A DNA stretch of 35,980 nucleotides. It comes from an uncultured Clostridia bacterium. GTDB lineage: Bacteria; Bacillota; Clostridia; UBA1381. Numbering within the stretch: position 1 is the stretch's first letter; the number at the start of each line of letters is the position of its first letter. Positions 4,571 to 35,549 of this stretch are shown piece after piece. Both the position numbers and the translations under genes were made by a program. The stretch lies in contig CALXWJ010000039.1 of assembly GCA_944392335.1 (NCBI GenBank), positions 1 through 35,980 on the forward strand, read 5' to 3'. The notes under the pieces are model-generated. The model had not been told where the DNA came from, ran no database searches, and saw only the letters and a program-made list of their open reading frames with translations.

Positions 4571-4605
4571 TCTTTTTTCCTCCTCATTTTTTATATATTT
4601 AATAA

Positions 4606-17972: not shown

Positions 17973-20972
17973 TTATTTTAAATTTTCAAAAAATCTTACC
18001 ATTGTTGTAATGGCCTGTTCTTTCGTATATGTTCCTTGCGGCTCAAAGCCATTGTCTGTGCCTGTCATAATTCCACGATCAACAACAAAATTAACACCAT
18101 TTACTGCCCAATCAGAAACTCCGTCTATGTTTGTTGTAGGAGCATTTGTATTATATCCCATTACTTCCGCAGCAGCACAAAGCATTTTCGCGGCTTGTTG
18201 ACGTGTTATGTCTCCCAACGGTTCAAATTTATTATTACCAGTTCCATTTATTATACCCATCTTTGCAACTTGTGTTACATAATAGAACAAAACATCATCG
18301 AACTCAACTGTTATTTTCTTATTTACCGTACTTTGTATTTCTTCAAACTTAATCGGATTTTTTAAAGCCATTGTATTATAAAGCAACATACAAAATTCAG
18401 CTCTTGTTATATTATTCTGATAATTATTTTGCATATCCGGCCATAAGAAACCATAATTTTTAGCTTTTTCAACATACTCTTTTGCCCACTCGCTCGGGGT
18501 TTCGGAAACAACATTTCGCAAGTATTTTGAAATATCTATGCCCATTGGATTATACAAATCCCAATCATCCACAGATTCGGTAATATATTGAATAATATTA
18601 ATTCTGTCTTCTTGATTATTTCCTGTCAATTTTGTAATTAAAGCATCATCATAGTGTCTAAAAAATTTTTCAGTCGCTATACAACCATATTTACATAATG
18701 CCTTATAAAAATTAGCACAAGCCATAAAACGAACCGCATTATCTCGTGTTGGATAATCTGCAAATATTGTTTCAGTATTTTTTACTTTAAAATTCATATA
18801 TCCGTCAATTACTGAAACTGCATCCATAAGAAGAATGTCATTTGAAAGTTCATCCTGATTAAATAATCCATTTGATACAAGCTGGGCAGATGCGACTATT
18901 GCTTTTGCAGCATTAACTCCCGGCACAAGTGAAATTAAAGAATCCCAACCATATTGGCCAACATTTTCAAATAATTCTTCGACACCTTCAAAAACTCCTT
19001 CAGCAATTTTATTAACCGCCTTTTCATTTGCCTCTTTTACAGCTTTCATTACAGTATCACATGCTTCCGTTAATTCAGAAACAGTTGATATTTCCTTTAA
19101 CTGTTCCAATGCACAAATCTGCTCTTCTGAAACCAAGCATAATGCTGTTAATTGCTTATATTTGTCATTCATCGCATCAAAGCTGTCTTTTGCAGTAATT
19201 ACTGCGTCTAAAATACTAATATCATTAAAGAATTTATCAACATCAAATCCCTTTTTTATTTCATCTGACAACAGTTTATTTATTTCATCTTCTGCAAACG
19301 AACCAACCTTATTAAGCTTCTTAGCGGCAAATTCAAGATTGTCTAAATACAGGCTGTCTTTTACGGTATCATAGAATGTGTCTGATGTCACCATATCCAT
19401 CAATACTGCTTCATAATAATTTTTACTGTCAAATTCCAAACTAAATGCGTCAATAAAGCTATTTAAATCATTATTCATTTGGGCAGCCACATCAGAAGAC
19501 GAATCGGCGTGAAGTGTCGCAGGATTATTAAATGTATCTATCATATATTTGTATGTAGGATTATCTGCACATATTTTTGCTTTTAATACTAATTCATCTG
19601 AGATCGTATCAGCGATAGCCGCTTCAACGGTTACATCTATTGTTCCGATGTTCTCGCCCTGACAATAATACGTAAGCGTTGCAGTACCCGGACTCATACC
19701 TTGGACAAATGCATCCATAGATGTTAAATATGACACATCACTGCTGTCAAACGGATTGCTTACACCTCCGCAGCTGGAATATTGACTTATGATTTTTACA
19801 ACGTCCTCATTGCTGCTTGTTATATTAAACTCACTACTTGGAATTTCGCTGTAAATACCACCCACATATGACGTAATCCATTTTTGCTCGCCTAATGTTA
19901 TCGTTTGCGCAGAACCTGCCGACAGTGTTGGATTGTTTTCAGGAGTTGGCACTACATTCGGCAACAATTCATCTTTTTTTTCATCTGTTTCGGTTTTATA
20001 GTCATAATGTAATGTGGCTCTATTTAAAATAGAGAAATTGGAACCACCACTAAAATTAATAGATTGCCATTCCTTTGCGCTGCCACTATAATACACATCA
20101 TTTAGCTGGCATCCCCAAAATGCATAATCATCAATAACAGTGAGGCTGCTAGGTATTGTTATGGTTGATAAGCTAGTACACCCATCAAATACGCTCTCTC
20201 CAATACGTTCAACTCCACACCCAAGAAAAACATTAGTTAAACTGATACAATCTCTAAAAGCGGCTGCTTCTATAACACTAACGCCATCACCTATATACAC
20301 GTTTTTTAAGTTTCTACATGAAGAAAAGGCACTCCAGCCTATTTCTTTTATGTTATCAGGAATTGTTACACTTGTTATATTAAAATTAGCAAAAGTACAT
20401 GAATTAATATTTTCAATATTTTCAGGAATCGTTATATCTTCTATCAGTTCACCATTGATATATAGATTTATACCATAAACCAAAGAAGATATCCAACCAT
20501 TTAATGTAATATTGCACCATGATGATAAATCTCTTATATATACATTTCTCAATTCAAAACAATGATCAAACACATCTTTGCCAATATTCAAAATTCCTGT
20601 TCCAAATTTAATATTTTTTAACCAAATACAACTATAAAATGCATTATCTCCTATACTTATCACACTATCGGGAATAGATACATCTGTCAATTGTTGGCAA
20701 TCTCTAAATGCCCAATCGCCAATCTTCGTTATACCACTTTCTATAATTAAATTATTTATAAAGGTGGACCAAGGAGCACGTTCTTCATATGACCAATCCC
20801 ACATATCTCCCGTTCCACTAATCGTCAGCGTACCGTCTTCATCCAGTGTCCATGTAAGATTATCACCGCAAATACCACTGTCAACTATTGCAGCATTAGT
20901 AGTAATTGGCACAAACATAGATATGCTTGATAACATCGCTATCGTCAAAACTAAACTTATTAATCTTTTCAT
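17973..20972 (-). CDS. BspA-type leucine-rich-repeat surface protein with C-terminal SLH domains
   Basis: This is a 999-residue exported protein with signal peptide MKRLISLVLTIAMLSSISMF and an AAGGGGG ribosome site. Residues about 33-55 carry the CGDNLTWTLDEDGTLTISG opening common in BspA-like proteins. Leucine-rich repeats of the LRR_5 type then run to about 310 (ITKIGDWAFRDCQQLTDVSI, VISIGDNAFYSCIWLKNI). The middle is helical and unrecognised. The last 200 residues hold three SLH repeats with the usual GxxNG/GxxxxFxP pattern (MGIINGTGNNKFEPLGDITR). Proteins of this type are anchored on the wall and often bind host or microbial partners. It is the last gene of the second surface cluster. Confidence 0.85.
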   Translation of the reverse strand: MKRLISLVLTIAMLSSISMFVPITTNAAIVDSGICGDNLTWTLDEDGTLTISGTGDMWDWSYEERAPWSTFINNLIIESGITKIGDWAFRDCQQLTDVSIPDSVISIGDNAFYSCIWLKNIKFGTGILNIGKDVFDHCFELRNVYIRDLSSWCNITLNGWISSLVYGINLYINGELIEDITIPENIENINSCTFANFNITSVTIPDNIKEIGWSAFSSCRNLKNVYIGDGVSVIEAAAFRDCISLTNVFLGCGVERIGESVFDGCTSLSTITIPSSLTVIDDYAFWGCQLNDVYYSGSAKEWQSINFSGGSNFSILNRATLHYDYKTETDEKKDELLPNVVPTPENNPTLSAGSAQTITLGEQKWITSYVGGIYSEIPSSEFNITSSNEDVVKIISQYSSCGGVSNPFDSSDVSYLTSMDAFVQGMSPGTATLTYYCQGENIGTIDVTVEAAIADTISDELVLKAKICADNPTYKYMIDTFNNPATLHADSSSDVAAQMNNDLNSFIDAFSLEFDSKNYYEAVLMDMVTSDTFYDTVKDSLYLDNLEFAAKKLNKVGSFAEDEINKLLSDEIKKGFDVDKFFNDISILDAVITAKDSFDAMNDKYKQLTALCLVSEEQICALEQLKEISTVSELTEACDTVMKAVKEANEKAVNKIAEGVFEGVEELFENVGQYGWDSLISLVPGVNAAKAIVASAQLVSNGLFNQDELSNDILLMDAVSVIDGYMNFKVKNTETIFADYPTRDNAVRFMACANFYKALCKYGCIATEKFFRHYDDALITKLTGNNQEDRINIIQYITESVDDWDLYNPMGIDISKYLRNVVSETPSEWAKEYVEKAKNYGFLWPDMQNNYQNNITRAEFCMLLYNTMALKNPIKFEEIQSTVNKKITVEFDDVLFYYVTQVAKMGIINGTGNNKFEPLGDITRQQAAKMLCAAAEVMGYNTNAPTTNIDGVSDWAVNGVNFVVDRGIMTGTDNGFEPQGTYTKEQAITTMVRFFENLK

Positions 20973-21232: not shown

Positions 21233-22981
21233 CTAAGAACAAATATCTACTGTATTTGTCTCACCATTCCAGTTCACAGTTAACTCTAATGATTCCGATA
21301 TAGCTCTGACCGGGACAAGCGCTCTATCCTCAACAATACAAGCAGGAGAGTCCAATTCTACAACTGTATCATTTACATACATTTTTGCTTCACCGATAGT
21401 CAAAATGATAGTTTTATCATCTTTATGTGCTGTTACGGTACTTGTATCACCGTTCCATTCAACTGTGGCACCGAGCGCTTCAAATATGGCCCGCATAGGC
21501 ACCATAGTTCTGTCATTGATAAGCTGCGGTGGCACGTCAAATTCAATTTGTTTTCCATCAAGAATAACTGCAATATTACTTTCAGTTTCTAAAGATATTG
21601 TAAGATTATCTCCGCAGACTCCACTTTTGGCAAAAGAGTAAAGAGTGCTTTCTCCATATAATGTTTGATCTGTTGTTCCTTCGATTAAAGATTCCCATTG
21701 TTCTTTAGTACCATTATAATACAAGTACGGAATTTCCCAATTATAATGCCTAAGACTTGAAAAAAATGCTGAATAGTCCAAATTATTTATGGTAGATGGT
21801 ATATGAATACTTTCTAATTTACAGCCGCTTGCAAATGCCGATCCAAGTGTTGTAACTCCCTCCGGTATAATAAGCTCACTAATATTCCCGCATTGATCGA
21901 AAGCCCTTTCGCATATTATTTCCGTTCCGTCAGCAATCTTAACAGTCCCTGATTTATTCAATGCCGGAGGGCATATAACTAGTTGCTTTCCGTCTTTACT
22001 GTAAATAATCCCATCAACTGATTTAAAATGGCCATTTGCGGCAATATTTATATTTTTTAAGTTATAACACAAAGAAAAGGCAGCATCCATTGTTTTAAGA
22101 GATGAGGGTATTGTAACACTTTCCAAATTTATATTTTCGGAAAACGCCTGTATGCCAATATATTCAATTCCATTCCCTAAATATATGTTTTTAAACTCAT
22201 TTATGTAAAAAGCTTGTTCCCCTACATAGCGTATCGAATCCGGTAAAACCAGATTATCCATGCAAGTTACTCTAAAAGCCTCTTTTCCTATGCTGATAAG
22301 TCCTTCCGGAAAGTCTAAAGTGCTTAAAGAACCACATCTAAAGGTAAACGAATAATCTCCTATAGTTTTAATCGACTTTGGGAATATCAACGATGTAAAA
22401 TTTCCACCATATTCATAATAAAAAGAGTAATTTCCTATGTGGGTAATATTGACGTCAAATATTACGGATTTTATATACCGCGTATACCCATACCAAGGAG
22501 GTCGTGTACTTTTTTCCTTCCCATAATCATACATATCGCCACTACCTGTTATTGTTAATGTTCCGTTATTATCGAATGAATAATACACATTATCTCCGCA
22601 TTTGCCGGAATCTGAAAAAATTTCTATACTAATTGTATATTTTCCGTCAATAGCAACACCATCAGAATTACTGAATGTTGCTGTAAATGGGATTACATCT
22701 CCGGCAGATATATTTAAAAATATATTACGAACACCTTTTCCATTGTATCCGCCTCCATTGCCATATTGAATATTATGCTCATAGTCATCATATCCATCAA
22801 GAGAAATAGAAATTTTATAAAGGGCTGTTTGATCCGAAAGTATTGTAATGGTTTCTCCTGTATTAAGCTGATACTCACCTACCCCTGCATTCTCTATATT
22901 TTCAGCCTGTACGTTAATAGAAACACACATAAATGCTATAAACAAACATGCAAAAAATAATGTCCCAACTGATTTTTTCAT
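21233..22981 (-). CDS. Leucine-rich-repeat surface protein with stalk domain, C-terminally shortened
   Basis: The protein has 582 residues when started at the ATG at 22981. GTGAGG lies about ten bases upstream and a signal peptide follows (MKKSVGTLFFACLFIAFMC). The in-frame ATG at 23014 would overlap the preceding gene and lacks a signal-like start. An N-terminal beta domain (about 25-120) is followed by a BspA-like opening (CGDNVYYSFDNNGTLTITG) and LRR_5 repeats (about 150-440). A copper-amine-oxidase-N-like stalk domain covers about 470-582, with two PxxxxRxxVPxRAI-type motifs (NDRTMVPMRAIFEALG, EDRALVPVRAISESLE). It is probably displayed on the surface. It ends at a TAG beyond which a former domain can still be read, so the protein is probably shorter than its ancestor. 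Confidence 0.8.
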   Translation of the reverse strand: MKKSVGTLFFACLFIAFMCVSINVQAENIENAGVGEYQLNTGETITILSDQTALYKISISLDGYDDYEHNIQYGNGGGYNGKGVRNIFLNISAGDVIPFTATFSNSDGVAIDGKYTISIEIFSDSGKCGDNVYYSFDNNGTLTITGSGDMYDYGKEKSTRPPWYGYTRYIKSVIFDVNITHIGNYSFYYEYGGNFTSLIFPKSIKTIGDYSFTFRCGSLSTLDFPEGLISIGKEAFRVTCMDNLVLPDSIRYVGEQAFYINEFKNIYLGNGIEYIGIQAFSENINLESVTIPSSLKTMDAAFSLCYNLKNINIAANGHFKSVDGIIYSKDGKQLVICPPALNKSGTVKIADGTEIICERAFDQCGNISELIIPEGVTTLGSAFASGCKLESIHIPSTINNLDYSAFFSSLRHYNWEIPYLYYNGTKEQWESLIEGTTDQTLYGESTLYSFAKSGVCGDNLTISLETESNIAVILDGKQIEFDVPPQLINDRTMVPMRAIFEALGATVEWNGDTSTVTAHKDDKTIILTIGEAKMYVNDTVVELDSPACIVEDRALVPVRAISESLELTVNWNGETNTVDICS

Positions 22982-23000
22982 TTTGAATACCTCACAATTT

Positions 23001-25127
23001 TTAATAATTTTCAAATTCCGAAAATCTTGTATAAAACTGCTTGCTTTCTATGCACCATGAAGCAGATGCCATTTCTTCATCATTTTCATAAAATCTAACC
23101 CACACTATATATTCCTGTAATTCTTCATCAAATTTGGGAATAGAAACAACACAAGAAATGCTTTCTCGCTCAGGTATATTTAATTCTTCTTCTGCTGCAT
23201 ATATTATTTCTGTAATATTATAATGTATTCCATCTATAATACGATCTCCATTGTCCTCACTTTGAGTATAATCCACTGCTTCTGCTAAATCAACTTCACT
23301 CAAATTGTGTTTATAATCCACTGGGCAAAATGGTATTTTAATTTCCATCGTAGAACCGAACATATTCTCTCCGTATTCACTGCCACCCCATTTATGGTCA
23401 ACAGCAATTGTATCATCAGATACAAGGAAATAATCATATCTTAAAATATCAGCACCAACGGGGTCATCCCAGGTTACATCAACATGATAGTATCCGTCAT
23501 CTATTTTTACAATATTCCAAGCATGTCCAAGTCCCCATGATGGGGTATCGTCTTCATAGACAATGCCTTTAGCGTCCCCGAAAACAAGCCAACAGTCTAA
23601 TCCGAAATATTCACATAAATATTGATACGTATATGCATAATCATTACAAACACCTTTTCCTTCATATAAACTCATATATACAAAATTGCCATTCTTATCA
23701 CTATTTTCAACAAAGTCATAATCATATTCCATGTTTTCTACTAAATAATCGTGTATGATTTTATATTTATCATAAGTTGTTTCGACATTGTTTAGTTTGG
23801 ACTCTATAAATTGAATTTTTTGTTTTATTGTTTCATATACTTTTAACGCATCTTGATAATTAAATTCATCATCCAAATATAGATACATGGGCATCAATGG
23901 AAAAAGTATAGCTTCTTCAACATTTATATCATACAAAAAACTATCATCTTTGATTTTAATCGCTGGCAAACTTAGGTTTTTTAAATTCTTTAAATTACCA
24001 ATTTCAGAAAAATCATTAAGTTCAATGTTTTGAGAATAAAGACTCAAGCTATCAATATTAGGAGTATAGACCAAATCCTTCAAACTCTTAAGCTTTATAT
24101 TATCCGGCAAATACCGTGTTGACAATCCCGTTATTTTTTGCAGCATTTCATTAGAAATTTTTCCAATATATATTACGCAATCGTTATTTGGATATCCATT
24201 TGGAAGGCTCATACGAACGCATAATTCAAAAGCAAATCCGGTAAATTCCACTTCACTGTTAGAAATCACTGCCAAGTCAGTTATATTATTAATATCATTT
24301 TCGAACTCAATGGCTTTTAGATTAGCAAGTTTGTCAATATCCGAAACGCTTGTTAATTTCTTTCCATTTGGTACATCATATAGAAGTAACGAGGTTATTT
24401 CATCTAATAATTCTGTAGTTAATTTTCCATCATACGTAGTACCCCATTCGTAATTCAGGTCGAGGGCTATAGCTCTACGCACAGAATACTCAAAAGCTGC
24501 ATCACGAAAAACAATATCATTTTTTTTAATTTGATCCGAATTATTTTCATATATTCTGTATGTTAATAATATTGCTTGCTCACAAGTGGTGTTTCCTAAC
24601 GGATCTATTTTATTTTCTCCGACACCTTTAATTATGTTATTATCAAAGGCATATTGAACAGAAGATAAGGCCCAGTCCGAAATATCCTCTATATCCGCAA
24701 ATTGTGTTACATTATAGTTATGTATATCTGCACTTTCTATTGAAATATCTATACATCGTGTAAGCATAACGCAAATCTCCTGTCGAGTAATAAAAGTATT
24801 TGGAGAAAAAAGATTATCCGTCACACCTTTTACAATACCCAATTGATATGCTTTTAATATTTCTTCATTGTCAGTATCATCAAATACATCATTTGTCTTG
24901 ATTTCATTAGTATTAGTAATGCTTTCATACAACTTCATCACCAGTTCGCAAAATTGCTCTCGTGTTATATTTTCTTGATAATTTTCTGTTACGCTATTTG
25001 TTATGATTCCAGCGTTTTTTGCACCTTCAATTTCTTTTTCCGCCCAATCAGACGGTGCTGAATCAGCAAATGCAACAGTAGAAACTAATAATAAAATCGT
25101 AGTTAATATGCCAATTATTTCTTTCAT
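23001..25127 (-). CDS. SLH-anchored transglutaminase-like protein
   Basis: The protein has 708 residues when started at the ATG at 25127. An alternative ATG at 25139 overlaps the preceding stop as TAATG, but the later start begins the signal peptide directly (MKEIIGILTTILLLVSTVAF). Three SLH repeats occupy about 20-195, at the N-terminus. A weakly leucine-rich region follows (about 280-430). A transglutaminase-like domain at about 450-570 has the full triad: Cys in GKGVCNDYAY (near 493), His in GHAWNIV (near 533) and Asp in HVDVTWDDP (near 549). A C-terminal module of about 75 residues is shared with the decayed end of the next gene. Family members are proteases, amidases or cross-linking enzymes, so wall-surface protein processing or cross-linking is inferred. 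The gene is translationally coupled to the gene before it. Confidence 0.85.
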   Translation of the reverse strand: MKEIIGILTTILLLVSTVAFADSAPSDWAEKEIEGAKNAGIITNSVTENYQENITREQFCELVMKLYESITNTNEIKTNDVFDDTDNEEILKAYQLGIVKGVTDNLFSPNTFITRQEICVMLTRCIDISIESADIHNYNVTQFADIEDISDWALSSVQYAFDNNIIKGVGENKIDPLGNTTCEQAILLTYRIYENNSDQIKKNDIVFRDAAFEYSVRRAIALDLNYEWGTTYDGKLTTELLDEITSLLLYDVPNGKKLTSVSDIDKLANLKAIEFENDINNITDLAVISNSEVEFTGFAFELCVRMSLPNGYPNNDCVIYIGKISNEMLQKITGLSTRYLPDNIKLKSLKDLVYTPNIDSLSLYSQNIELNDFSEIGNLKNLKNLSLPAIKIKDDSFLYDINVEEAILFPLMPMYLYLDDEFNYQDALKVYETIKQKIQFIESKLNNVETTYDKYKIIHDYLVENMEYDYDFVENSDKNGNFVYMSLYEGKGVCNDYAYTYQYLCEYFGLDCWLVFGDAKGIVYEDDTPSWGLGHAWNIVKIDDGYYHVDVTWDDPVGADILRYDYFLVSDDTIAVDHKWGGSEYGENMFGSTMEIKIPFCPVDYKHNLSEVDLAEAVDYTQSEDNGDRIIDGIHYNITEIIYAAEEELNIPERESISCVVSIPKFDEELQEYIVWVRFYENDEEMASASWCIESKQFYTRFSEFENY

Positions 25128-25138
25128 TGATATCACCA

Positions 25139-25831
25139 TTATTTCACTGTCATATTTCCAATACCTATTCCATAGTCACTACCGCTAAAATATTCATTTG
25201 CAACAATTTTAAGCTGTAAACCGTAGCTTACCGGAATAGAGACTTTCTTAGGCATACATTCCGGTTCAAGCTCTATCTCTTCAACCACCTTACCGTCAAC
25301 CACAAACGAAACACTTTTACTTCCTTGTTCATTATCTGTATGTCCTACAGTACATTCTATAGCGGAATATTTGCTGTTCAGATTAAAAAGCGCATATGAA
25401 CCATAATATGATAATGTTATTCCGTCACTGTACTTTTCTCCCGCCATGCTGAAACTCTTGCCGTTTGAAGCTAAGTAAGTATTGCAACCGTTTTCGTCAT
25501 ATGGCGGGCATTCCTCAATAAAAGAAGTTCCATCAGCAACCAGATTATCCCACAAATATACACTTTTGGTTGCGCCGTCCCATGTTACCTGCATATCCGC
25601 CAAATTTGCCGTACCACGCACCGGCATATATGTTGTACCGTTGTAAATAAACGGCTCAATAATACTTCCGTTTGCGTCTTTCAGTTCGCAAAGTACATTA
25701 TCTTTATAAACTTTAATGTTATCATACATAACCTCAATATTTTCCAAAGCTGTTTTTGCAAAAACAGCTCCGCCAGTCAACAGCGTCCCTACTAATACTC
25801 CTACTATTAAACCTTGCATTCTTTCTTTCAT
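25139..25831 (-). CDS. Exported stalk-domain protein with NPCBM-like C-terminus
   Basis: This 230-residue protein has a membrane or signal segment at about 6-25 (GLIVGVLVGTLLTGGAVFA). A stalk domain at about 35-95 contains FIYNGTTYMPVRG, a motif of copper-amine-oxidase-N-type modules. A beta-sandwich resembling NPCBM carbohydrate-binding domains covers about 105-230 (GEKYSDGITL, YSAIECTVGH, FVVDGKVV). GGAGGG lies about eight bases before the ATG. It is the first gene of the second surface cluster and its stop overlaps the next start by one base. A surface binding or mechanical stalk role is inferred. The region upstream is the TetR pseudogene, so its promoter is uncertain; a weak TTGATA-15-TATTAT pair overlaps the pseudogene end. 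Confidence 0.7.
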   Translation of the reverse strand: MKERMQGLIVGVLVGTLLTGGAVFAKTALENIEVMYDNIKVYKDNVLCELKDANGSIIEPFIYNGTTYMPVRGTANLADMQVTWDGATKSVYLWDNLVADGTSFIEECPPYDENGCNTYLASNGKSFSMAGEKYSDGITLSYYGSYALFNLNSKYSAIECTVGHTDNEQGSKSVSFVVDGKVVEEIELEPECMPKKVSIPVSYGLQLKIVANEYFSGSDYGIGIGNMTVK

Positions 25832-25874: not shown

Positions 25875-26422
25875 CTATACATCCGCTTGTATCAACTCAT
25901 AAATACGTTGCATTTCCACTTTAACTTTGTTCTTATCTTCCCATATTATATAATCTAAAACGGCAGAAACAAAAAGATAAATCTTCGGCTTTAATTTTTC
26001 TATATCGTAATGATTTCATCTGCCATTTTGACTGTAAGCATATCATAGGATTCAAATAACGTATTTGCTCTCTCATCAAAGCTCCGCATTGTCTGCTTGT
26101 AGCAATCTGATATATAAACCCTTAATTCGTCCTTATGTTTAATAATCTGTCCGGGAAAATAATTAAACATTTTCTGTCAATTTGAAGTATTTGCAAATGC
26201 AAAGTTGAACAAGTCTTCCGTAACATTTTTGAGTTCATAAAATGTTGCGTTCAAAATCATTTCATCTCTGCCTTCAAACCAATAATATATGCTTCCGCTT
26301 AAAACCCCGATTTCCTTACAAAGATTTTTAACTGACGCATTTTCCAACCCCTTATCTACAAGATATTGAAAACACGCCTCCATAATTTCTTTTCATATGT
26401 CTCGCCCATACGGTTCTCTCAT
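25875..26422 (-). pseudogene. Broken TetR-family regulator gene
   Basis: When lesions are ignored the frame gives about 182 residues, the normal TetR length. A helix-turn-helix is visible (NASVKNLCKEIGVLSGSIYY, then WFEGRDEMIL), and the C-terminal part (KIYLFVSAVLDYIIWEDK) also fits the family. Three lesions are seen. One TGA (26393-26395) follows nine codons after the ATG at 26422. A second TGA (26177-26179) lies in the middle. A one-base frame change near 26006-26014 is needed to reach the end at 25875. The internal ATG at 26383 opens only a 68-codon fragment with the DNA-binding domain. TetR genes of this type often control drug-efflux pumps, such as the MMPL gene now about 7 kb away. Confidence 0.75.
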
Positions 26423-26460: not shown

Positions 26461-26489
26461 ATTATAGAACCCTATATAATCAAATGAAA
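26461..26489 (-). promoter_or_regulatory. Possible relic promoter of the TetR gene
   Basis: On the minus strand TTTCAT (26489-26484) is followed after 17 bases by TATAAT (26466-26461), with GAAGGGGG and the ATG at 26422 further on. The -35 box is weak. Confidence 0.35.
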
Positions 26490-26503: not shown

Positions 26504-26522
26504 ACATAATCAAAATTATGTG
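26504..26522 (+). repeat. Left 19-base inverted repeat
   Basis: ACATAATCAAAATTATGTG. Within it ACATAA and TTATGT are inverted arms around a six-base TCAAAA centre, the general plan of a tyrosine recombinase crossover site. It is exactly inverse to 26776-26794. Confidence 0.8.
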
Positions 26523-26698
26523 ATAAACATGTTGCAATAAAATAAATTTAATTTGATATTTTGTTTTTTTAAAGAACAGTAATTGCTATTAAACTGCATA
26601 CTAATTAGACCAATAGAAGAAATTGCTCAATTGGTCTGTTTTGTTGTGATTTTTTTTAATTTTATGTTTATGTTTTTTCTGCTTTTCATCACAAATCA

Positions 26699-26727
26699 TT
26701 GACTTTCTTCGCTTAATGTGATATAAT
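26699..26727 (+). promoter_or_regulatory. Strong rightward promoter inside the inverted-repeat segment
   Basis: TTGACT (26699-26704), a 17-base spacer and TATAAT (26722-26727) are preceded by TGA directly before the -10 box, giving an extended -10 element. No gene follows it on the plus strand. A transcript would meet the hairpin at 26772-26803 after about 70 bases. Confidence 0.7.
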
Positions 26728-26771
26728 GTCCAAAACTATTAAGATGCTTTTGCTTACAAATCTCAATATGT

Positions 26772-26803
26772 AAACCACATAATTTTGATTATGTGGTTTT
26801 TTT
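26772..26803 (+). terminator. Hairpin terminator overlapping the right inverted repeat
   Basis: AAACCACATAA (26772-26782) pairs perfectly with TTATGTGGTTT (26789-26799) around a six-base loop, and seven T follow on the plus strand. It would stop the rightward promoter at 26699. The stem reaches beyond the inverted repeat on both sides, so inversion of the segment would shorten it. Confidence 0.6.
26776..26794 (-). repeat. Right 19-base inverted repeat
   Basis: Reads ACATAATCAAAATTATGTG on the minus strand, identical to 26504-26522. The non-palindromic TCAAAA centre fixes the two copies as inverted rather than direct. Confidence 0.8.
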
Positions 26804-27641
26804 AATATCTTAACAATCCTAGCTTTTGTAATTGCTTGCGGTGAACATCTCCACTTTCCATAGTATAGATGCGGGTAGTATTCACAGATGAATGACCGAG
26901 TATATCGGCAAGGCGAACAATATCTTTTTGTAATGAATAATATGTTCTTGCAAACAGATGACGTAGATTATGCGGAAAAACTTTATCCTTTGACACTCCT
27001 GCTATTTCGCAGAGCTTTTTCATATCAGACCATATATTACTGCGATCAAGCGGTTTTCCTGTTTTTGTTACAAACACGGAACCGCTTTTTACATTGTGTT
27101 TTTTTATGTAATTGGCAAGCATTTTACAAAGCTGCTTGGTAAGAAATACAATTCTGGTTTTTCCTTTACATCTAATAACCGCTTGTCCGATTTTCAAATC
27201 ATTGCAAGTAATATATTTTAATTCGGATACCCTAATCCCAGTACTGCATATAGTCTGCATTAGATAATAGAGTCTCTCGTTATTTTTGTTTTTTGCGACG
27301 TTAAGCAATTTTTCATACTCAGCCTTTGTTAGCTCCTTTTCTTTACTCGCAAATACCTGTCGTTGAATTTTCAACGCCTTAACTTTGCAGTCATACCACT
27401 CGTTATAGCTAAAAAAACTGTTTAAGGATGAAAGAACAGAGTTTACACTTGCGGGAGCATAGTCTTCTATAAGCTTCTGTTTATAGGCAAGTACCATCTG
27501 TTTTGTAATTTCCGTACCTGCAAGCCACTTCATAAAAGCCGTTATATCTCGGATATACTTTTCAATAGTTGCTGTTGCTTTTTCCTCGTCAATTAAATAT
27601 TCATTAAATTTTTGAATAAGTTCATTAGTGATTGTTTTCAT
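26802..27641 (-). CDS. Tyrosine recombinase (XerC/XerD-like)
   Basis: This 279-residue protein has an N-terminal SAM-like DNA-binding domain (about 1-90) and a C-terminal catalytic domain. The catalytic pattern is complete: Arg in STGIRVSEL (near 137), His-x-x-Arg in PHNLRH (near 222-225), His in LGHSS (near 250) and the Tyr nucleophile in TRIYTM (near 258). AAAGGAG precedes the ATG. Enzymes of this size either resolve or invert DNA segments or move small elements. The gene lies immediately beside the inverted-repeat promoter segment, which is a likely substrate. An insertion sequence starts only 30 bases upstream of its start codon, so its native promoter has probably been displaced. Confidence 0.9.
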   Translation of the reverse strand: MKTITNELIQKFNEYLIDEEKATATIEKYIRDITAFMKWLAGTEITKQMVLAYKQKLIEDYAPASVNSVLSSLNSFFSYNEWYDCKVKALKIQRQVFASKEKELTKAEYEKLLNVAKNKNNERLYYLMQTICSTGIRVSELKYITCNDLKIGQAVIRCKGKTRIVFLTKQLCKMLANYIKKHNVKSGSVFVTKTGKPLDRSNIWSDMKKLCEIAGVSKDKVFPHNLRHLFARTYYSLQKDIVRLADILGHSSVNTTRIYTMESGDVHRKQLQKLGLLRY

Positions 27642-27691
27642 ATTTCGACAACTCCTTTTACTATGTATCGTTTTGTTAAGTTAAATGAAAA

Positions 27692-27720
27692 TTGAGACCT
27701 TGAACTCCTTATGGTATAAT
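27692..27720 (+). promoter_or_regulatory. Promoter of the insertion-sequence transposase
   Basis: TTGAGA (27692-27697), a 17-base spacer and TATAAT (27715-27720), 58 bases before the probable ATG at 27779. Confidence 0.55.
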
Positions 27721-27778
27721 GGTTTTATCACACAAACCCATACCTCCCTGAAAATCAGAGAAAGAATATCAAGATCTC

Positions 27779-28826
27779 ATGGATAAAATTATACCACATT
27801 GTTGCCCACGGTGCAACTCTAAAAAACTTTCAATAAGGGCTTGTCCCGTCATTCAACGAGTATAAGAGCGCAAGCAAAGCTTGTGCTGTAATCAGTGGGA
27901 AATTGTACTCTCATTGATTACAAATATGGGACCCGCCGCCGATTACGACGGGGGGGGGGACAACATGTGCGCATTTATAAATATGGCAAGGATAAATTTG
28001 GTAACAAAAAATATCAATGCCCTACTTGTAAACATCAATTTGCTCCCGATTTTGTTTCAAGCGGATCTAAATGAGCAAAACCACTTCCAACTGACAAGAG
28101 AAAATATCCCTCCTGCCCTGTTTGTGGCAAATCCGCATTTCTTCATCATGACTTTGATGATTATTCTAATTATCGTTGCTATGACAAAAAATATAATCAT
28201 TCATTCTTTCAAGCAAAGCCTACAGTAAAATCCCACCATCTATGGCTAACGTATTCGGAAAAAATGATTTCAAGCGTATGCGTCACAGCGTCCATCTTGT
28301 TATTGCGCTCTTGTTATGTTCTACATAGGCGGCACCTCGTTTTGCAAAATTGCTTTATACTTGAGGTTATTGTATAATATCAAAATTTCTCATGTAACTA
28401 TCAACAATTGGCGCAAAAAATTTGCTCCTATGTTTCACTCTAAAATGGCTACGCTTATGCCTGCTTTAAATTTTAACTCATATTAATGGCATACTGATGA
28501 AACTGTTGTTAAAATAAAATGCAAAAAGTATTATATTTGGTTTATCACTGATAGCGAAGCTCATTTTATTTTGGGCTTTCACCTATCTGCTTGCAAAGTT
28601 TTGCATAAAGCTGTTTTTGATGCTAAACATATTCGTGTTGCCAGCTTCAAAGATGATATATCAAACAATGTTATTGAAGCCTTTAACAAACAATTCAAAT
28701 ATTGGCAAAAATCAGAGGAATTTTGTGAAATTATTATGCTATTTTTTTAACTTTACAAAACCTAAATTTAGGTATAAAAAAGCGTGTTCACATAACTCAT
28801 ATCGAGCAGTTAACACGCATTGTTAA
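27779..28826 (+). pseudogene. Broken DDE transposase with N-terminal zinc ribbons
   Basis: Fragments in several frames read as one transposase. The ATG at 27779 opens with a first zinc ribbon (CCPRCNSKKL). After the inserted repeat it resumes as YKYGKDKFGNKKYQCPTCKH. After a TGA and a frame change it reads YPSCPVCGKSAFLHHDF. It later reads ISHVTINNWRKKFAPMF, then WHTDETVVKIKCKKYYIWF (first Asp of the DDE triad), then FKDDISNNVIEAFNKQFKYW (the Glu). The stretch that should hold the second Asp is missing. Multiple stops, frameshifts and an internal deletion make it inactive. The family resembles IS6/IS240-like DDE transposases, but the assignment is from memory. Confidence 0.65.
27831..27976. 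repeat. Small structured repeat element, copy 2, inside the transposase
   Basis: Similar along its length to 17761-17900. It splits the transposase between the first zinc ribbon (ends about 27830) and its continuation (about 27977), so it is an insertion in its own right. It carries a run of ten G (27950-27959) where the first copy has CGGCGGTTG, which destroys one hairpin. The stem GTAATCAG..TGATTAC is retained. Confidence 0.65.
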
Positions 28827-28868
28827 TATCTTTATTCAATTTTAAATTACATACTAAAAGTAATTTTA

Positions 28869-29695
28869 TTTCACCAAATTATGTCAAACTACGACATACT
28901 CATCAAACAGAGAAAATCGAAGTGGAAAATATAAAAAATTACGAAAATAAAGGCTAAAATTTAGCCATTTTTTTAAGCTCTTTTTAATGAAACAATACAA
29001 TTTAGCCATTTTTTAACCCATCTAAATTGGTTTAAAATGAGTTAAATTCCGTCAAATTTTATCAAAGACGACAAAGATTTTCAGGCATAAGAAAACCCCG
29101 CAAACCGCATGGTTACGGGGTTTATAAGCATTTTCGCAAGAGAAATTATCTCTTTGATAGTTTTTCACACTTTGAAACGCCTGATTTTATGGGGTTTTTG
29201 CATATCTTTGTTTCTTGCGCGTTACTTGTGCAGAACTTCTCACCACAACATAATAACACAATACCAATAGATATTTTCTTAATATTCTTACATACAACAA
29301 TCAGAAAATTTCAAGGTATATATGTAGACATTTAGAACATTTCAAGCCCTTATTTCATGCGGCTTTCAAGGCTCAAAATCAGCGAGGTAAGGTGTTTATA
29401 TTACCACCCCCTAAAACAGCTCTTAAACTTTCCACTTTTCCTACTTCTAAAGTAAGCATATAGGGCTAAAGAAAAAACAGCATGGAAATATAAAAGCAAA
29501 AATAACCTTTCCAATGCTCATAAAATTGTTTTTTTACCGTATCTTGAATTTTAATATTGTTTGCAGCAAATACGTTTTGATTCCATTAGCAACGGCATAG
29601 CTGATTTTCTCCCCGCCCTTACGGAAGCTGTATATGTATTTTGATAAAATCAATTTTAAGAGGCGGAGGCCGGCAGCAAGCAATGATATAATTCC
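28869..29695. other. Gene-poor relic region
   Basis: No convincing gene. A 17-base direct repeat based on AATTTAGCCATTTTTT occurs at 28958-28974 and 28999-29015; the first copy is also part of a GGCTAAA-A-TTTAGCC hairpin. A terminator-like hairpin lies at 29092-29124. Near 29610-29690 the minus strand has a short open stretch (FRKGGEKISYAVANGIKTYL) that looks protein-like but has no start or ribosome site, possibly a gene relic. The general look is that of a former mobile-element boundary. Confidence 0.4.
29092..29124. terminator. Hairpin resembling a bidirectional terminator
   Basis: AAACCCCG (29093-29100) pairs with CGGGGTTT (29116-29123), with a further AACC/GGTT pairing inside. TTTT follows on the minus strand and TTTA on the plus strand. 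It lies about 570 bases beyond the stop of the GLUG-repeat gene. Confidence 0.5.
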
Positions 29696-32600
29696 CTATG
29701 CTCTCAGTTTAGACTTCCTGAATTTAATTATACATAAAGATGCTATTATCAATAATGCAATCAAAATCAACCAAAAAGCATTAAAATCTCTTTCTTCATA
29801 TTTCAAACAAACGGTGTTTTGTATTCCCTCTGTTTCCAACATTACATATTTGCCTTTATCGGTAGTTTCGGCTTTTTCCCAATTCCCGTCTTTTAAAACC
29901 TGCGCTGTAACTTTGTCGTTATTCTCGTTCAAAATACGAATTGTTACAGTATCACCGTCCTTCAGATTGGTATTGATAAGAGATATATCATAAACTTTTA
30001 TCTCGCCATCTGTATCGGCAGGCGGTTTTTGTGTACTGTCCGTGATATGCAGTTCAGCCTCATCTGTAAATTCTCCTTCGCACAGTGCAAGGGCTAATTT
30101 CCCGGTTTTGTCCTTTTCCGAGCTTGCAAGGACCGTGATATAAGGTTTATATTCGCACGATACCTCCATGTTTTCAGTTACGGTTTCCGCTTCTATCTGT
30201 TCCCACCTGCCAAAGTGCCCGTCTTTTGGAGGGATCGGCGGATATTTGATTTTTGCAGTTTCTTCGCCGTATTGAATATCTTGCGTTTCCACAATTTTAT
30301 CTTCAGCGATGAAGGTGATAGTAAAACTGATAAACCGTTTCGGAATACCGCCTATATTCCTTAATTCATCAAAGGTAACAGGCAAAGCCTTTTCGCTGTA
30401 ACTTATGCCGTCAATAGCTCCAAGACCATTATTCACATAAAAGTTTTGATATAGATTATCCTTATTTTCTGCATCACCGCAAATACTTCCCGTATTTTCA
30501 TCACCCGCGACATTTACGATTGTATAGCAGTCTGTTACAATATCCGCTTTTCCTGCAATGCCGCCCACATATCTTTTGCCGGCCAGTTTGCTTTTTGCAT
30601 AGCTTTTACGGATTGCAGATTCGCTCTTCCCCGCGATGCCGCCTACATAATTTCCGTTTGTACTCTCTGTATCGGCATAATTTTGACATTTATAAACTGT
30701 CCCTATTCCAACAAGGCCGGCAATACCGCCCGTACAATCTTTTTTGCCGGTTATTTCGCCGTCGTTTAAGCATTCTTGCAAAATAGCTTTTGTCCGGTAT
30801 GTAAAGTTAAGCGCGTCGGGTTTCTCTATATCGTCCTCCGGGTCTTTTGCATATTCAATCGCCATTGCCCCCGCTATTCCGCCTGTATTTCTGTCAGCTT
30901 CGACATTGCCGAAGTTATGACACTGCGCAACCTTGCCCTGCCGCGCACTTTCGATATCCTCATCGGACACATCAAGAAATCTATCAGAACCACCGCTTAT
31001 CCCATCCTGCAAATTTTCAAATTCGTCCATCAGCAAATCCATAACCAGATGAAATTGATTGATGATAGACGTAAGGTTGTTTGTTATGGTTTCTTTTCCG
31101 TTTGAAACAGTATTTTTAAGCCCATCTATTTCGCCGGATATATCCGAAAGAGAGTTAAATAAATCCTCACTTGCTATTTTGAAATCATCACCGAGCTTTA
31201 CAAATTCCAAAGGCTTCTCATTTGACAAATCTGTGATTATGTCTTTTATATCTCCGATTGCTGCTGTAATATCTTCCATTGTATAAGATAAAGAGGTAAT
31301 AGCATCTGCCAAATCATCTTTTGCAGCATTTATTTCTCCGCTTATATCATCAGCGTAGTCCCCCAGCTCATTAGATGTACTTTCGATAGCCGTTCCTAAA
31401 TCTTCAAGACCGTTCGTTATGTAATACATAGCATCGCCTAAATATTCCATAGCCAATTCCATGTTTTGAGCAGCAGACTTAAATTCCGAAAAATCAATCT
31501 CGGTATTAAGTATGATGGTATCAAGGCTTTTTTCGATTGTTTGCAAAGAAGATATTATAATATCAACATTATCTTTTATAGTTTTGATGTTTTCTAATAT
31601 TTTTTTTACGTTAATGCCTATCGCTTCAAAACTTTCCGGCTTGGTCTTTAATGTAGTTTCTATTGTTTCAAGCGCTGTTTTAATTCTTTGTTTTGCAGTT
31701 ATTATATCTTTTATAGATGACGACAACTCAGAAACAGCATTTTTCACCTTTGTCTGATTATTAAATTCGATTGCATCATCTAAATCATTGCTTGCCCTGC
31801 CTGCTCTTGAAGCAGCTTGTTTTATACTTCTTTCCGCCCTTGAAATCTCTGATAAAGCGGCGTTTATATTATCAATTTCATCACTCAAATCGGGGGCATA
31901 TATTTTTATTTCATCAAAAACCTCTGCTGTTTTATCAAATGCAGCTTTTAAATCTTCTCCGCCATTTTCAAAACTTTCAAACACAGGTATCAGTTTGTCA
32001 AGTGTGTTGGACAGAATTGCCGACTGTGCATTTATTTCACTTAAATTATCATCTATAAAGCCCGCTCCTTGATTGAGCAGAATTTCAGCATTATCCTGTG
32101 CAGTTTTAGAATATTCCGAAATGTCCGTCAAATGCTTTTCGGTATCAGCCCCCAAAGTATCAGTATCAGTTATAAACCGATTCACCATCTGATTCAGATT
32201 GTCAAGCTCCTGCCGTATACCTTCAAGACCGCTTTCGGATATATTCAGCAAAATATATGGCTCAACCTGTCCTACAATACCGCCTACATCTTTTCTGCCC
32301 TGAATAAATCCGCGATTTTCGCATCCCAGCATATACCCCGACTGCCTGCCTGCGATACCGCCGACGTTATAGCCTATGTGCTGATAGCCGACAGCGGCAT
32401 GATTGGTACAGCCTTGTACAATACCGGAGGAATAGCCAGCAATACCGCCTGTGTCACTATGTCCCAAAACGCCTTCTTCTTCGTTTTCTTCGGAATTGGT
32501 TTTATAATTTTCAATGATAGCCCCCCCGGGTCTGTGTCAATATTTGAAATGTCATTTTTCTTTTCTTCATATACCGTATTTACAGCGGCATGATTGGTAC

Positions 32601-33195
32601 AGTTTTGAATAAAGCCACTGTTTTTTCCTGCAATACCGCCTGTAGAATTTTCTCCGATTACACTGCCCGTTGAAGCGCAGGAAAGAATTTGTCCGCTGTC
32701 GGCATTGTTACCAACAATACCACCTATGACATTCTGACCTTTAACTGTTCCCTCAAAGCTACATAGCGCCAAAATTCCGTAATTTTCACCAACGATACCG
32801 CCTGTAAAACTCTTTGTGCCGTTTGGTGTGAATGTAGCTTTTACATTAAGATTTGTTATTTTTCCGTTTTGCTGAACATAACGGAATATTCCCATATATG
32901 ATCCGTTTTCAGAAAACTTAATACCCGAAATTGTATAGCCGTTTCCGTTAAATGTTCCGCCGAAAGTAGGTACAGGAGAAAAATCGCTGTTCGTAAAATC
33001 GATATCGCAGGTTAAATTCACGGTTTTACCTTGCGACCAAGTATCCAGAGTACAGTTTTTGGAAAACTCAATAAAATCTTCTTTGCTTGAAATTGTAATT
33101 GTATTTTGAGCAGCAAGTACTGGCGGAATGGTTGCAAGAAGTATGGATAAAATCATTGCGACAGCAAGTATTCCAGCTATTACTCTATTCCTCAT
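29696..33195 (-). CDS. Large GLUG-repeat/coiled-coil surface protein, frame broken at a G7 run
   Basis: The gene starts at the ATG 33195 (AGGAGG eight bases upstream), overlaps the transporter stop by 11 bases, and opens with a signal peptide (MRNRVIAGILAVAMILSILL). The first part has GLUG-type repeats (GGIVGENYG, GGIVGNNADSG, GGIAGKNSG). At 32521-32527 a run of seven G on the coding strand shifts the frame; one extra G would join it to AIIENYKTNSEEN and restore a single protein of about 1166 residues. Further GLUG repeats follow, then a long helical, coiled-coil-rich segment (about 310-620), more GLUG repeats and a C-terminal membrane helix (FWLILIALLIIASLCII) with a basic tail. As sequenced, two products are possible, of which the first ends at 32374. 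The partner transporter suggests a role in envelope export or in organising the transporter outside the membrane. The function is not known. Confidence 0.75.
32521..32527 (-). repeat. G7 homopolymer at the frame break
   Basis: Seven C on the plus strand (G on the coding strand), next to CCC on the coding side. Eight G would keep the GLUG-repeat gene open. Slippage and sequencing error are both plausible. Confidence 0.8.
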
Positions 33196-35497
33196 CTGTA
33201 CCACCTCCTGATTTGAAGTGTTCTTTAATATCCTTTAAGCTGAAAGATGTTTTTTCAATTATCTTATCTCCGAGAACTAAAAGCTGTGGAAGTATTCCCA
33301 TAACCAAAACAATCGAAATTACCGTACCTCTGCCGAGTGCCGTACCTATTGAGGAAATGGCAGGGTCAGACGAAAATAAGCCTATGGCAAATCCGGCAGA
33401 TGCTAAAATTGTTCCCGATGTAAAAACTGTCGGAAAAGCTAAATCAAGCGATTGTTTTATTGCTTCAAACTTATTCATTTTCCGTCTTAATTCCGTGTAT
33501 CTGTTTGTTATTACGATAGCATAATCTATATTTGCACCCATTTGAATTGAACTTACGACAAGATAGCTCATAAAGAAAATGGGGCTGTTTTGAATAGTCG
33601 GAAAAGAGAAATTGATCCATATACTGCCTTGAATAACCAAAATCAGTATTATCGGTATTCCTGCCGATTGAAAAGTGAAGAATAATACGATAAGTACAAA
33701 CAAAATCGAAAGAATATTTATTACCATATTATCTCTCACAAAAGCAGTTGAAAGGTCATAATCACTTGTAGAATTACCTACAAGCAAAACATTATCACCG
33801 TAATATTTTTTCGCAGTATCTCTTACAACACTTAAAAATTCAAATGTTTCCTCGCTTTCCTCGAGGATATTCAAATTCATTACCAAGCGTGAATAATTTT
33901 CGCTTCCAAGCTGCTTTTTACCGTCTGTGAGCTGTTCGTGCAATTCGTCTAAATCATTCTGCATTTCCTCATCAAGAGAAACATATCCGTTATCTATCAT
34001 TTCAAAAACAAAGTCAAACATATCCAAAAGTGCGATTGTGTATGTATCTATGCCGCCGACTATTCTGCCGTAACTTTCATTGTCTGCGGCATAAGCGGAG
34101 TATAAAAGACGCACGGTTTCAATATCCATATCGGTAAGCTCCGAAAATTCACGGGGCGTTAGCCTGTCTCCGACAGAATATCCGTCAATAGCTTCCACAG
34201 AAGCAAGTCCCGTTACCTCGTCAACTTGCGAAAAACTCTCAAGCTCTTTTTTTAGTTTTTCTTCTTTTTCATAATCGCCGGATGGTACAACAACCGCAAG
34301 TGTATTTGGTTTGCCAAATGTATTTTTTATCATTTCATCTGCAATTTGTGATTCGTTCTTTTTCACAGTAGACAAGTTGGTATAGCTGAACGCATAAGGG
34401 CAGTTGTTGGAAAAGAAGAATGCAACAACAATCAAAACAGCAAAAATACAAGGCGTTATAAATCTTGCCTTAACAACAGCATTACTCCAAGCAGTAATTT
34501 TAGGTACAAAACTTTTATGATGTGTTTTGTCAATCAGCTTTGAAAAAGACATCAAAAGACCGGGCATAAGAGTGAATACAGTTAAAATGCTGATAATTAT
34601 TGCCTTTATAAGAACAATACTCATATCAAAACCAATTCTAAACTGCATAAAACCCAATGCCGCAAGTCCCGAAAGAGTAGTTAAGCAACTGCCGGAAATT
34701 TCGGGAATAGCTTTACGAAGAGCCGTGATAACTGCTTCTCTCGGCTCTTTTGTTTCTCTTTCTTCGGTATATCTGTGACAGAGAATAATTGCATAATCTA
34801 TTGCAAGGGCGAGCTGCAAAATAACAGCGATTGAATTTGAGATAAAGGAAATAGTTCCGAACATAAAATTAGTACCTTTATTCAAAATCGCTGCAACACC
34901 GAAAGTCATAATCAATACAGGAATTTCCATATAGGTATGAGAAGAAATGAGTAAAACAATCAAAATAATAACACAGGCAATCAGCATTACAATATTTATT
35001 TCTTCTGACAGTCTTTTTGCACTTGTATCTCCGATTTCAGCAGATATATATGTATCATAATCAGTTAAATATTTTTCTATTTCATGAAAGGCGTTTACAG
35101 TTATTTCGTCCCCGCTACCACCGTTAAATGTTACGGAAAATAAAGCGGAAGCATTTACAAAATGGTTGCCGGTGTCATCAAAAGCAATTTCTTTGACGCC
35201 ATTGATTTTTTCCAATTCCTCACATAATATTTCGGCATCTGAATAGCTTATGTTATCTATCATTATTTCCGCCGTTGCATAAGTAACAAACTCATTTTCC
35301 ATAAGGGTAAGACCTTTTCGGGTTTCTGTTTCTTCCGACAGATAATCGGTTATTGTATTATTTACCGATACCCAATTAGAAGAAAACAAACTGAATATAA
35401 TAAGTAATATATATACCAAATAGAAGCCTTTTCGCCTGTCAACGATAAAAGCAGCTATTTTTTCTATTGGTGTAGTTTTGCTGTGATGCTTTGCCAT
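33185..35497 (-). CDS. MMPL/RND-family membrane transporter
   Basis: The protein has 770 residues when started at the ATG at 35497, where AAGGAGAGA is well spaced; the in-frame ATG at 35527 has no such site. Two halves each carry an extracytoplasmic loop and a bundle of membrane helices, about twelve in total. Both halves contain the proton-relay type motif of the family (LALAIDYAIILCHRYTEER and MGANIDYAIVITNRYTELR). MMPL proteins use the proton gradient to export lipids, surfactants or drugs. The large first loop (about 55-170) and second loop (about 380-560) are as expected. The gene overlaps the GLUG-repeat gene, so the two are made together. No intact regulator is adjacent, and the nearest TetR gene is broken. 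It could be a drug pump or an envelope-component exporter. Confidence 0.9.
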   Translation of the reverse strand: MAKHHSKTTPIEKIAAFIVDRRKGFYLVYILLIIFSLFSSNWVSVNNTITDYLSEETETRKGLTLMENEFVTYATAEIMIDNISYSDAEILCEELEKINGVKEIAFDDTGNHFVNASALFSVTFNGGSGDEITVNAFHEIEKYLTDYDTYISAEIGDTSAKRLSEEINIVMLIACVIILIVLLISSHTYMEIPVLIMTFGVAAILNKGTNFMFGTISFISNSIAVILQLALAIDYAIILCHRYTEERETKEPREAVITALRKAIPEISGSCLTTLSGLAALGFMQFRIGFDMSIVLIKAIIISILTVFTLMPGLLMSFSKLIDKTHHKSFVPKITAWSNAVVKARFITPCIFAVLIVVAFFFSNNCPYAFSYTNLSTVKKNESQIADEMIKNTFGKPNTLAVVVPSGDYEKEEKLKKELESFSQVDEVTGLASVEAIDGYSVGDRLTPREFSELTDMDIETVRLLYSAYAADNESYGRIVGGIDTYTIALLDMFDFVFEMIDNGYVSLDEEMQNDLDELHEQLTDGKKQLGSENYSRLVMNLNILEESEETFEFLSVVRDTAKKYYGDNVLLVGNSTSDYDLSTAFVRDNMVINILSILFVLIVLFFTFQSAGIPIILILVIQGSIWINFSFPTIQNSPIFFMSYLVVSSIQMGANIDYAIVITNRYTELRRKMNKFEAIKQSLDLAFPTVFTSGTILASAGFAIGLFSSDPAISSIGTALGRGTVISIVLVMGILPQLLVLGDKIIEKTSFSLKDIKEHFKSGGGTDEE

Positions 35498-35520
35498 TTT
35501 GTCTCTCCTTAAATCAATTA

Positions 35521-35549
35521 TTGACAAATGTTTATTAAACGAATATAAT
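35521..35549 (+). promoter_or_regulatory. Exact consensus promoter facing away from the transporter gene
   Basis: TTGACA (35521-35526), 17 bases, TATAAT (35544-35549). It starts 24 bases upstream of the transporter ATG and points the other way, into the insertion sequence. It may be the promoter of a former divergent gene. Confidence 0.65.

Follow-up and report, generated by a model that had tools for sequence, protein, structure and literature searches.

A putative self-contained promoter-inversion switch between a tyrosine recombinase gene and a surface-protein operon in an uncultured Clostridia bacterium

The window, that is, the whole stretch of 35,980 nucleotides analyzed here, carries a tyrosine recombinase gene whose stop codon faces a short, mostly intergenic segment bounded at both ends by inverted repeats, and on the other side of this segment the remains of a tetR gene lie between the left repeat and an operon coding for surface proteins. 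The features embedded in this region are the following:

17973–20972, minus strand: surface protein with leucine-rich repeats (LRR) and SLH domains, possibly the last gene of the operon.
21233–23014, minus strand: BspA-type leucine-rich-repeat surface protein.
23001–25139, minus strand: SLH and transglutaminase surface protein.
25139–25831, minus strand: NPCBM / Cu-amine-oxidase-N surface protein, the first intact gene downstream of the putative switch.
25878–26386, minus strand: relic of a TetR-family regulator with in-frame stops and a frameshift, 34% identical to the intact TetR of locus L068 (E = 1e-27).
26472–26484, plus strand: CTATATAATCAAA, possibly a second copy of the distal site that has decayed, 30 nt outward of that site; such doubling is common in the family.
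26504–26521, plus strand: putative distal crossover site ACATAAT-CAAA-ATTATGT, matching the family consensus, with its core at 26511–26514; the exact repeat runs to 26522.
26513–26785, no strand: putative invertible segment, about 273 nt between the core centres, in the OFF orientation in this assembly.
26607–26637, no strand: hairpin AGACCAAT-15-ATTGGTCT upstream of the promoter, an apparent bidirectional terminator kept in the family.
26699–26727, plus strand: predicted extended -10 promoter TTGACT-17-TGnTATAAT, inside the segment, aimed at the 3' end of the recombinase gene and conserved in the family.
26772–26799, plus strand: intrinsic terminator made up of the proximal crossover site and a T-run, which would stop OFF-state transcription ahead of the recombinase gene.
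26777–26794, minus strand: putative proximal crossover site with core TTTG (26784–26787), separated by 7 nt from the stop codon of the recombinase gene; the exact repeat starts at 26776.
26802–27641, minus strand: tyrosine recombinase of 279 aa (PF00589, E = 4e-31) with intact catalytic residues.

On the far side of the recombinase gene, about 2 kb (27650–29690) are poor in genes, and a start with the letters MDKIIPHCCPRCNS, near 27780, resembles a transposase remnant. They are followed in a row (29696–35527) by a coiled-coil protein that weakly matches the MCE family, an open reading frame of 276 aa without any match and an MMPL-type transporter.

A previous interpretation of this DNA, made from the letters alone and referred to here as the sequence-only reading, had proposed a candidate inverton, that is, an invertible promoter, flanked by an intact tyrosine recombinase starting 7 bases beyond the right repeat. 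The gene is indeed intact, and the residues R137, K161, H224, R227, H250 and Y259 are invariant among its relatives; however, what lies 7 nt from the repeat is the stop codon, since the gene starts at 27641 and its 3' end is at 26802. Relatives detected at E ≤ 1e-30 occur at least once in 36 of 70 genomes of the family to which the bacterium belongs, and Clostridia hold hundreds of them, with Muricomes intestini, Holdemania sp. and Lachnoclostridium sp. among the isolates. The genome of the window itself possesses a paralogue (72% identity) on a different contig, C85, where a second module (L021, positions 2899–5581), with core TGTG and set to OFF, precedes a gene for an Hsp70-like protein and one for a protein of 912 aa that weakly matches helicase-like defence proteins (SspH, mad8). 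As to mobile DNA, the relative found on the megaplasmid of Monoglobus pectinilyticus ends in the same type of site, with the very core of the window, while no site of the family consensus was seen behind the recombinase gene of the Pusillibacter plasmid relative (L201). Six records of viral contigs (L202, L203, L206, L207, L209 and L214) carry both a recombinase gene and a site pair, although some of them may be mislabelled host DNA.

The anatomy of the two sites and the identity of their cores are legible in the DNA itself. The 19-nt inverted repeats recognized by the sequence-only reading (26504–26522 and 26776–26794) are exact, and under relaxed matching they extend to 34 nt at 85% identity; when the surrounding 2.2 kb were dinucleotide-shuffled 300 times, the longest inverted repeat reached a maximum of 15 nt. 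The left repeat is a near-palindrome, ACATAAT-CAAA-ATTATGT, and the right one is its reverse complement. When the relatives were each oriented on the recombinase gene and the region after the stop codon was inspected, a site pair was found directly after the stop codon in 100 of about 125 non-redundant relatives; pairs were selected by their arms only (ACATAAT-N4-ATTATGT, two mismatches allowed), ignoring the core. The layout is constant: one copy directly adjoins the stop codon or overlaps it, and its inverted counterpart lies at a median distance of 254 nt. Even though the core played no part in the selection, the 4-nt cores of a pair are exact reverse complements in all 100 loci. Fifty-six distinct cores occur among these loci, none of them palindromic, and in the first 41 loci only 3.2% of the comparisons between different loci gave a core match. 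Cores that are matched within a locus and varied between loci are characteristic of an overlap region where strand exchange depends on a match, and the asymmetry of the core is predicted to set the direction of that exchange. At least 75 core changes can be placed on the recombinase tree, after which both copies are still matched. A similar concordance is exhibited by variant arms, which are shared by all four half-sites of the locus in which they occur (ACGGAAT/ATTCCGT in L158 and GCATAAT/ATTATGC in L169). The idea that equal cores might be avoided within the same genome was not supported, as the cores are equal in 4 of 38 pairs from one genome versus 5.3% between genomes. Sites are doubled at one end in up to 19 loci, mostly at a spacing of 33–45 nt; doubled or tripled sites, mostly in the same orientation, at either the proximal or the distal end, were observed in L057, L058, L067, L070, L077, L116, L117, L123, L126, L147 and others.

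The sequence-only reading had itself pointed out that the repeats might only be TetR operators, in which case no recombination would take place. The palindromic form of both sites and the adjoining TetR relic speak for this explanation; yet the same pair also stands behind the stop codon of the recombinase gene at loci that lack a TetR gene nearby, and an operator would not require a core that is matched within each locus and varied between loci. Moreover, only 4 copies of the site consensus, with any core, exist in the 3.64-Mb genome, two in the window and two at the C85 recombinase, so that they are confined to the two recombinase loci. We rejected this explanation, which we hold to be extremely improbable, because the sites track the recombinase and not TetR.

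The analysis of the segments enclosed by the site pairs revealed that they usually contain a promoter. In the first 41 loci, a near-consensus sigma-A promoter with a score of at least 12 is present in 71% of the segments versus 0.3% of the shuffles. The distance between the end of the -10 element and one of the sites has a median of 37 nt. Over the 100 loci, this promoter points toward the recombinase gene (OFF) in 62 cases and toward the neighbouring gene (ON) in 13, the orientation being unclear in the remaining 25, and at least 10 changes of orientation are required on the recombinase tree. The clearest comparison concerns L058 and L070, two loci from different species, whose segments align in opposite directions over 261 nt with 78.5% identity while the recombinase gene stays on the same side; further inverted pairs of segments were found among the relatives. 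Among viral contigs from different samples, near-identical pairs were detected, all in the same orientation and none in the opposite one. Assembly breaks were also considered: of the 18 contigs ending within 700 nt of the recombinase stop codon, 6 end within 5 nt of the end of a site, and in three of these genomes a site with an identical core forms the start or the end of other contigs. Breaks at the sites are what a sequenced population with mixed orientations would be expected to yield. The comparison with related genomes that had been proposed as a check on the inverton thus shows both orientations across the relatives and, together with the 100 matched cores, the inverted homologous segments and the contig breaks, it strongly supports the inverton, in whose favour each of these independent tests came out.

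The window fits this scheme in its details. The promoter, the terminator overlapping the right repeat and the OFF setting, as previously read, all withstood the analysis, as did the idea that inversion would weaken the terminator, whose stem is computed at -12.7 kcal/mol as assembled and -8.3 kcal/mol after inversion. In the single assembly available the switch reads as set to OFF, and after inversion the promoter within the segment could face the target gene. About 14 nt beyond the distal site a T-run forms a possible weak ON-state terminator (-8.8 kcal/mol). Outside the segment, a promoter-like 10/12 match (26490–26461, minus strand) is at chance level.

Among the relatives, a T-run of at least four nucleotides lies outward of the proximal site in 28 of 41 loci versus 4 of 41 for the distal site (p = 2.5e-7), and this bias implies that the crossover site on the recombinase side doubles as an intrinsic terminator of OFF transcription. 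Most loci also carry a hairpin in the segment, typically AGACCAATG-N14-17-CATTGGTCT with a variable outer stem, located about 50–60 nt upstream of the -35 element. Its stem changes are compensated between loci, the z-score of the best local hairpin is below -2 in 61 of 95 segments, and its flanks are A-rich on the 5' side and T-rich on the 3' side (5.0 of 10 positions each versus a background of about 3.5). An Rfam search with the segment hairpin returned only sub-threshold chance matches. The hairpin is apparently a bidirectional terminator, and the cassette looks insulated.

The genes that adjoin the cassettes on the other side are arranged in a constant way, the first gene past the distal site pointing away from it in 91 of 94 loci at a median gap of 38 nt. 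Their products are diverse and include SLH, leucine-rich-repeat, cohesin and dockerin surface proteins and TetR regulators, as well as a diguanylate cyclase, a chemotaxis receptor, an Hsp70-like protein and restriction-like helicases. In L081, L086, L074, L082, L055, L084 and L101 the modules precede genes for Nmad2 (nucleotide modification), YpsA-like proteins and ResIII/HA-helicases, which suggests phase-variable defence-like genes.

This arrangement bears on a different view of the recombinase, i.e., that it is the integrase of a mobile element, that the repeats are its attachment sites and that inversion is incidental. The presence of several copies per genome, the patchy occurrence, the relatives carried by plasmids and viral contigs and an Xer-like integrase fold would all agree with it. 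However, the sites of a pair are inverted and not direct, only a promoter and a hairpin lie between them, no cargo ending in the same repeats was seen, and the orientation of the target genes and the placement of the promoter are conserved; we therefore regard an integrase as very improbable.

On the basis of these findings, we consider it highly probable that the locus in the window is a self-contained promoter-inversion switch, and very probable that the adjoining segment is flipped by the recombinase of the window. The anatomy of the sites, the matched cores, the predicted promoter, the terminator hairpin, the occurrence of both orientations in relatives and the direction of the genes can be read directly in the sequences; what we infer is that this protein is the enzyme, that inversion occurs in the strain and that the surface-protein operon is the present target. 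According to the mechanism that we propose, the recombinase would bind the two near-palindromic sites and recombine them across the 4-nt (possibly slightly longer) overlap, whose match would be required, thereby inverting the 273-nt segment together with its promoter. In the OFF state the promoter would fire toward the 3' end of the recombinase gene and transcription would be halted at once by the terminator at the proximal site; in the ON state its transcripts would leave the segment across the distal site and enter the former tetR and then the NPCBM/SLH/LRR operon. Whichever way the segment lies, read-through from the recombinase gene appears to be blocked by the hairpin upstream of the promoter.

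As to the gene under the control of the switch, an intact tetR occupies the position of the relic in L057, L068 and L112, and tetR was probably the original direct target in the window. It is possible, if rather unlikely, that the switch still works but is vestigial, its direct target being dead and the surface operon having a promoter of its own. The relic directly behind the distal site, its intact counterparts in the three loci, the T-run beyond the distal site and the 673-nt leader that separates this site from the first intact gene (the family median being 38 nt) all speak for such a decay. Against it, the leftward strand yielded no terminator from the distal site to the operon, and the DNA immediately ahead of 25831 yielded no promoter better than chance; furthermore, the relic ends close to the first ATG of the operon, as genes do within an operon, and the recombinase, the sites and the promoter are all intact. 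Since the path from the site is free of detected terminators, the surface operon is likely the ON-state target of the inversion switch, even though the T-run could attenuate its transcription. The operon had already been named as the target by the sequence-only reading, which the terminator-free path favours, whereas the distance of 673 nt and the decayed tetR, probably the direct target, do not.

Tyrosine recombinases that invert promoters are well known. In the fim switch of E. coli, a promoter segment of about 300 bp is flipped by the adjacent tyrosine recombinases FimB and FimE; that system differs in the phylum of the host and in having two recombinases, and the window recombinase gives only a weak profile match to fim-type invertase models. 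The recombinases XerA, XerD and XerH act on dif in dimer resolution. They are the best solved relatives of the window recombinase by sequence (4a8e, 5hxy and 1a0p), but its bit scores are far below the curated XerC/XerD cut-offs and it adjoins a local inverted site pair in place of dif. The RecV/cwpV system of C. difficile (PMC2784873) shares with the window an Xer-type tyrosine recombinase, a surface protein, an intrinsic terminator in the OFF state and short inverted repeats about 200 nt apart; however, the cwpV promoter is not part of the segment and recV is encoded away from the switch, whereas in the window the promoter would flip and the recombinase gene adjoins. A literature search by the letters of the arms gave only unrelated papers among the matches listed. 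Of the published sets, inverton group 139 with invertase group 35 of gut Clostridia comes closest, and its orientation changes in culture are supported by reads (Jin et al. 2025, PMC11892184). As in the window family, the hosts belong to the class Clostridia, the adjacent gene for a tyrosine-type recombinase is oriented such that the inverton promoter cannot drive it, and the element measures about 255 bp. Its inverted-repeat motif was previously unpublished, and the text on which we draw makes no mention of matching 4-nt cores or of roles for terminators. The window family, which agrees with it in taxon, size, gene arrangement and enzyme type, is probably this same group.

We consider evenly balanced the broader interpretation that the family represents a transferable, insulated promoter-flipping cassette of gut Clostridia, in which a site would serve as the terminator protecting the recombinase gene, a bidirectional terminator would stand behind the promoter, the matched 4-nt core would change fast and the target genes would be unrelated to each other. 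If this is true, such a cassette would have been placed before surface proteins, regulators, a diguanylate cyclase, Hsp70-like and restriction-like genes. The comparison of the relatives makes a recognizable family out of a single candidate and raises the question of how both copies of the core change together through so many changes on the tree. In addition, it provides a simple rule, consisting of a tyrosine recombinase of the window type, ACATAAT-N4-ATTATGT, about 250 nt and an inverted copy, which predicts phase-variable genes of uncultured gut Clostridia from assemblies alone, naming both the switched gene and its current setting.
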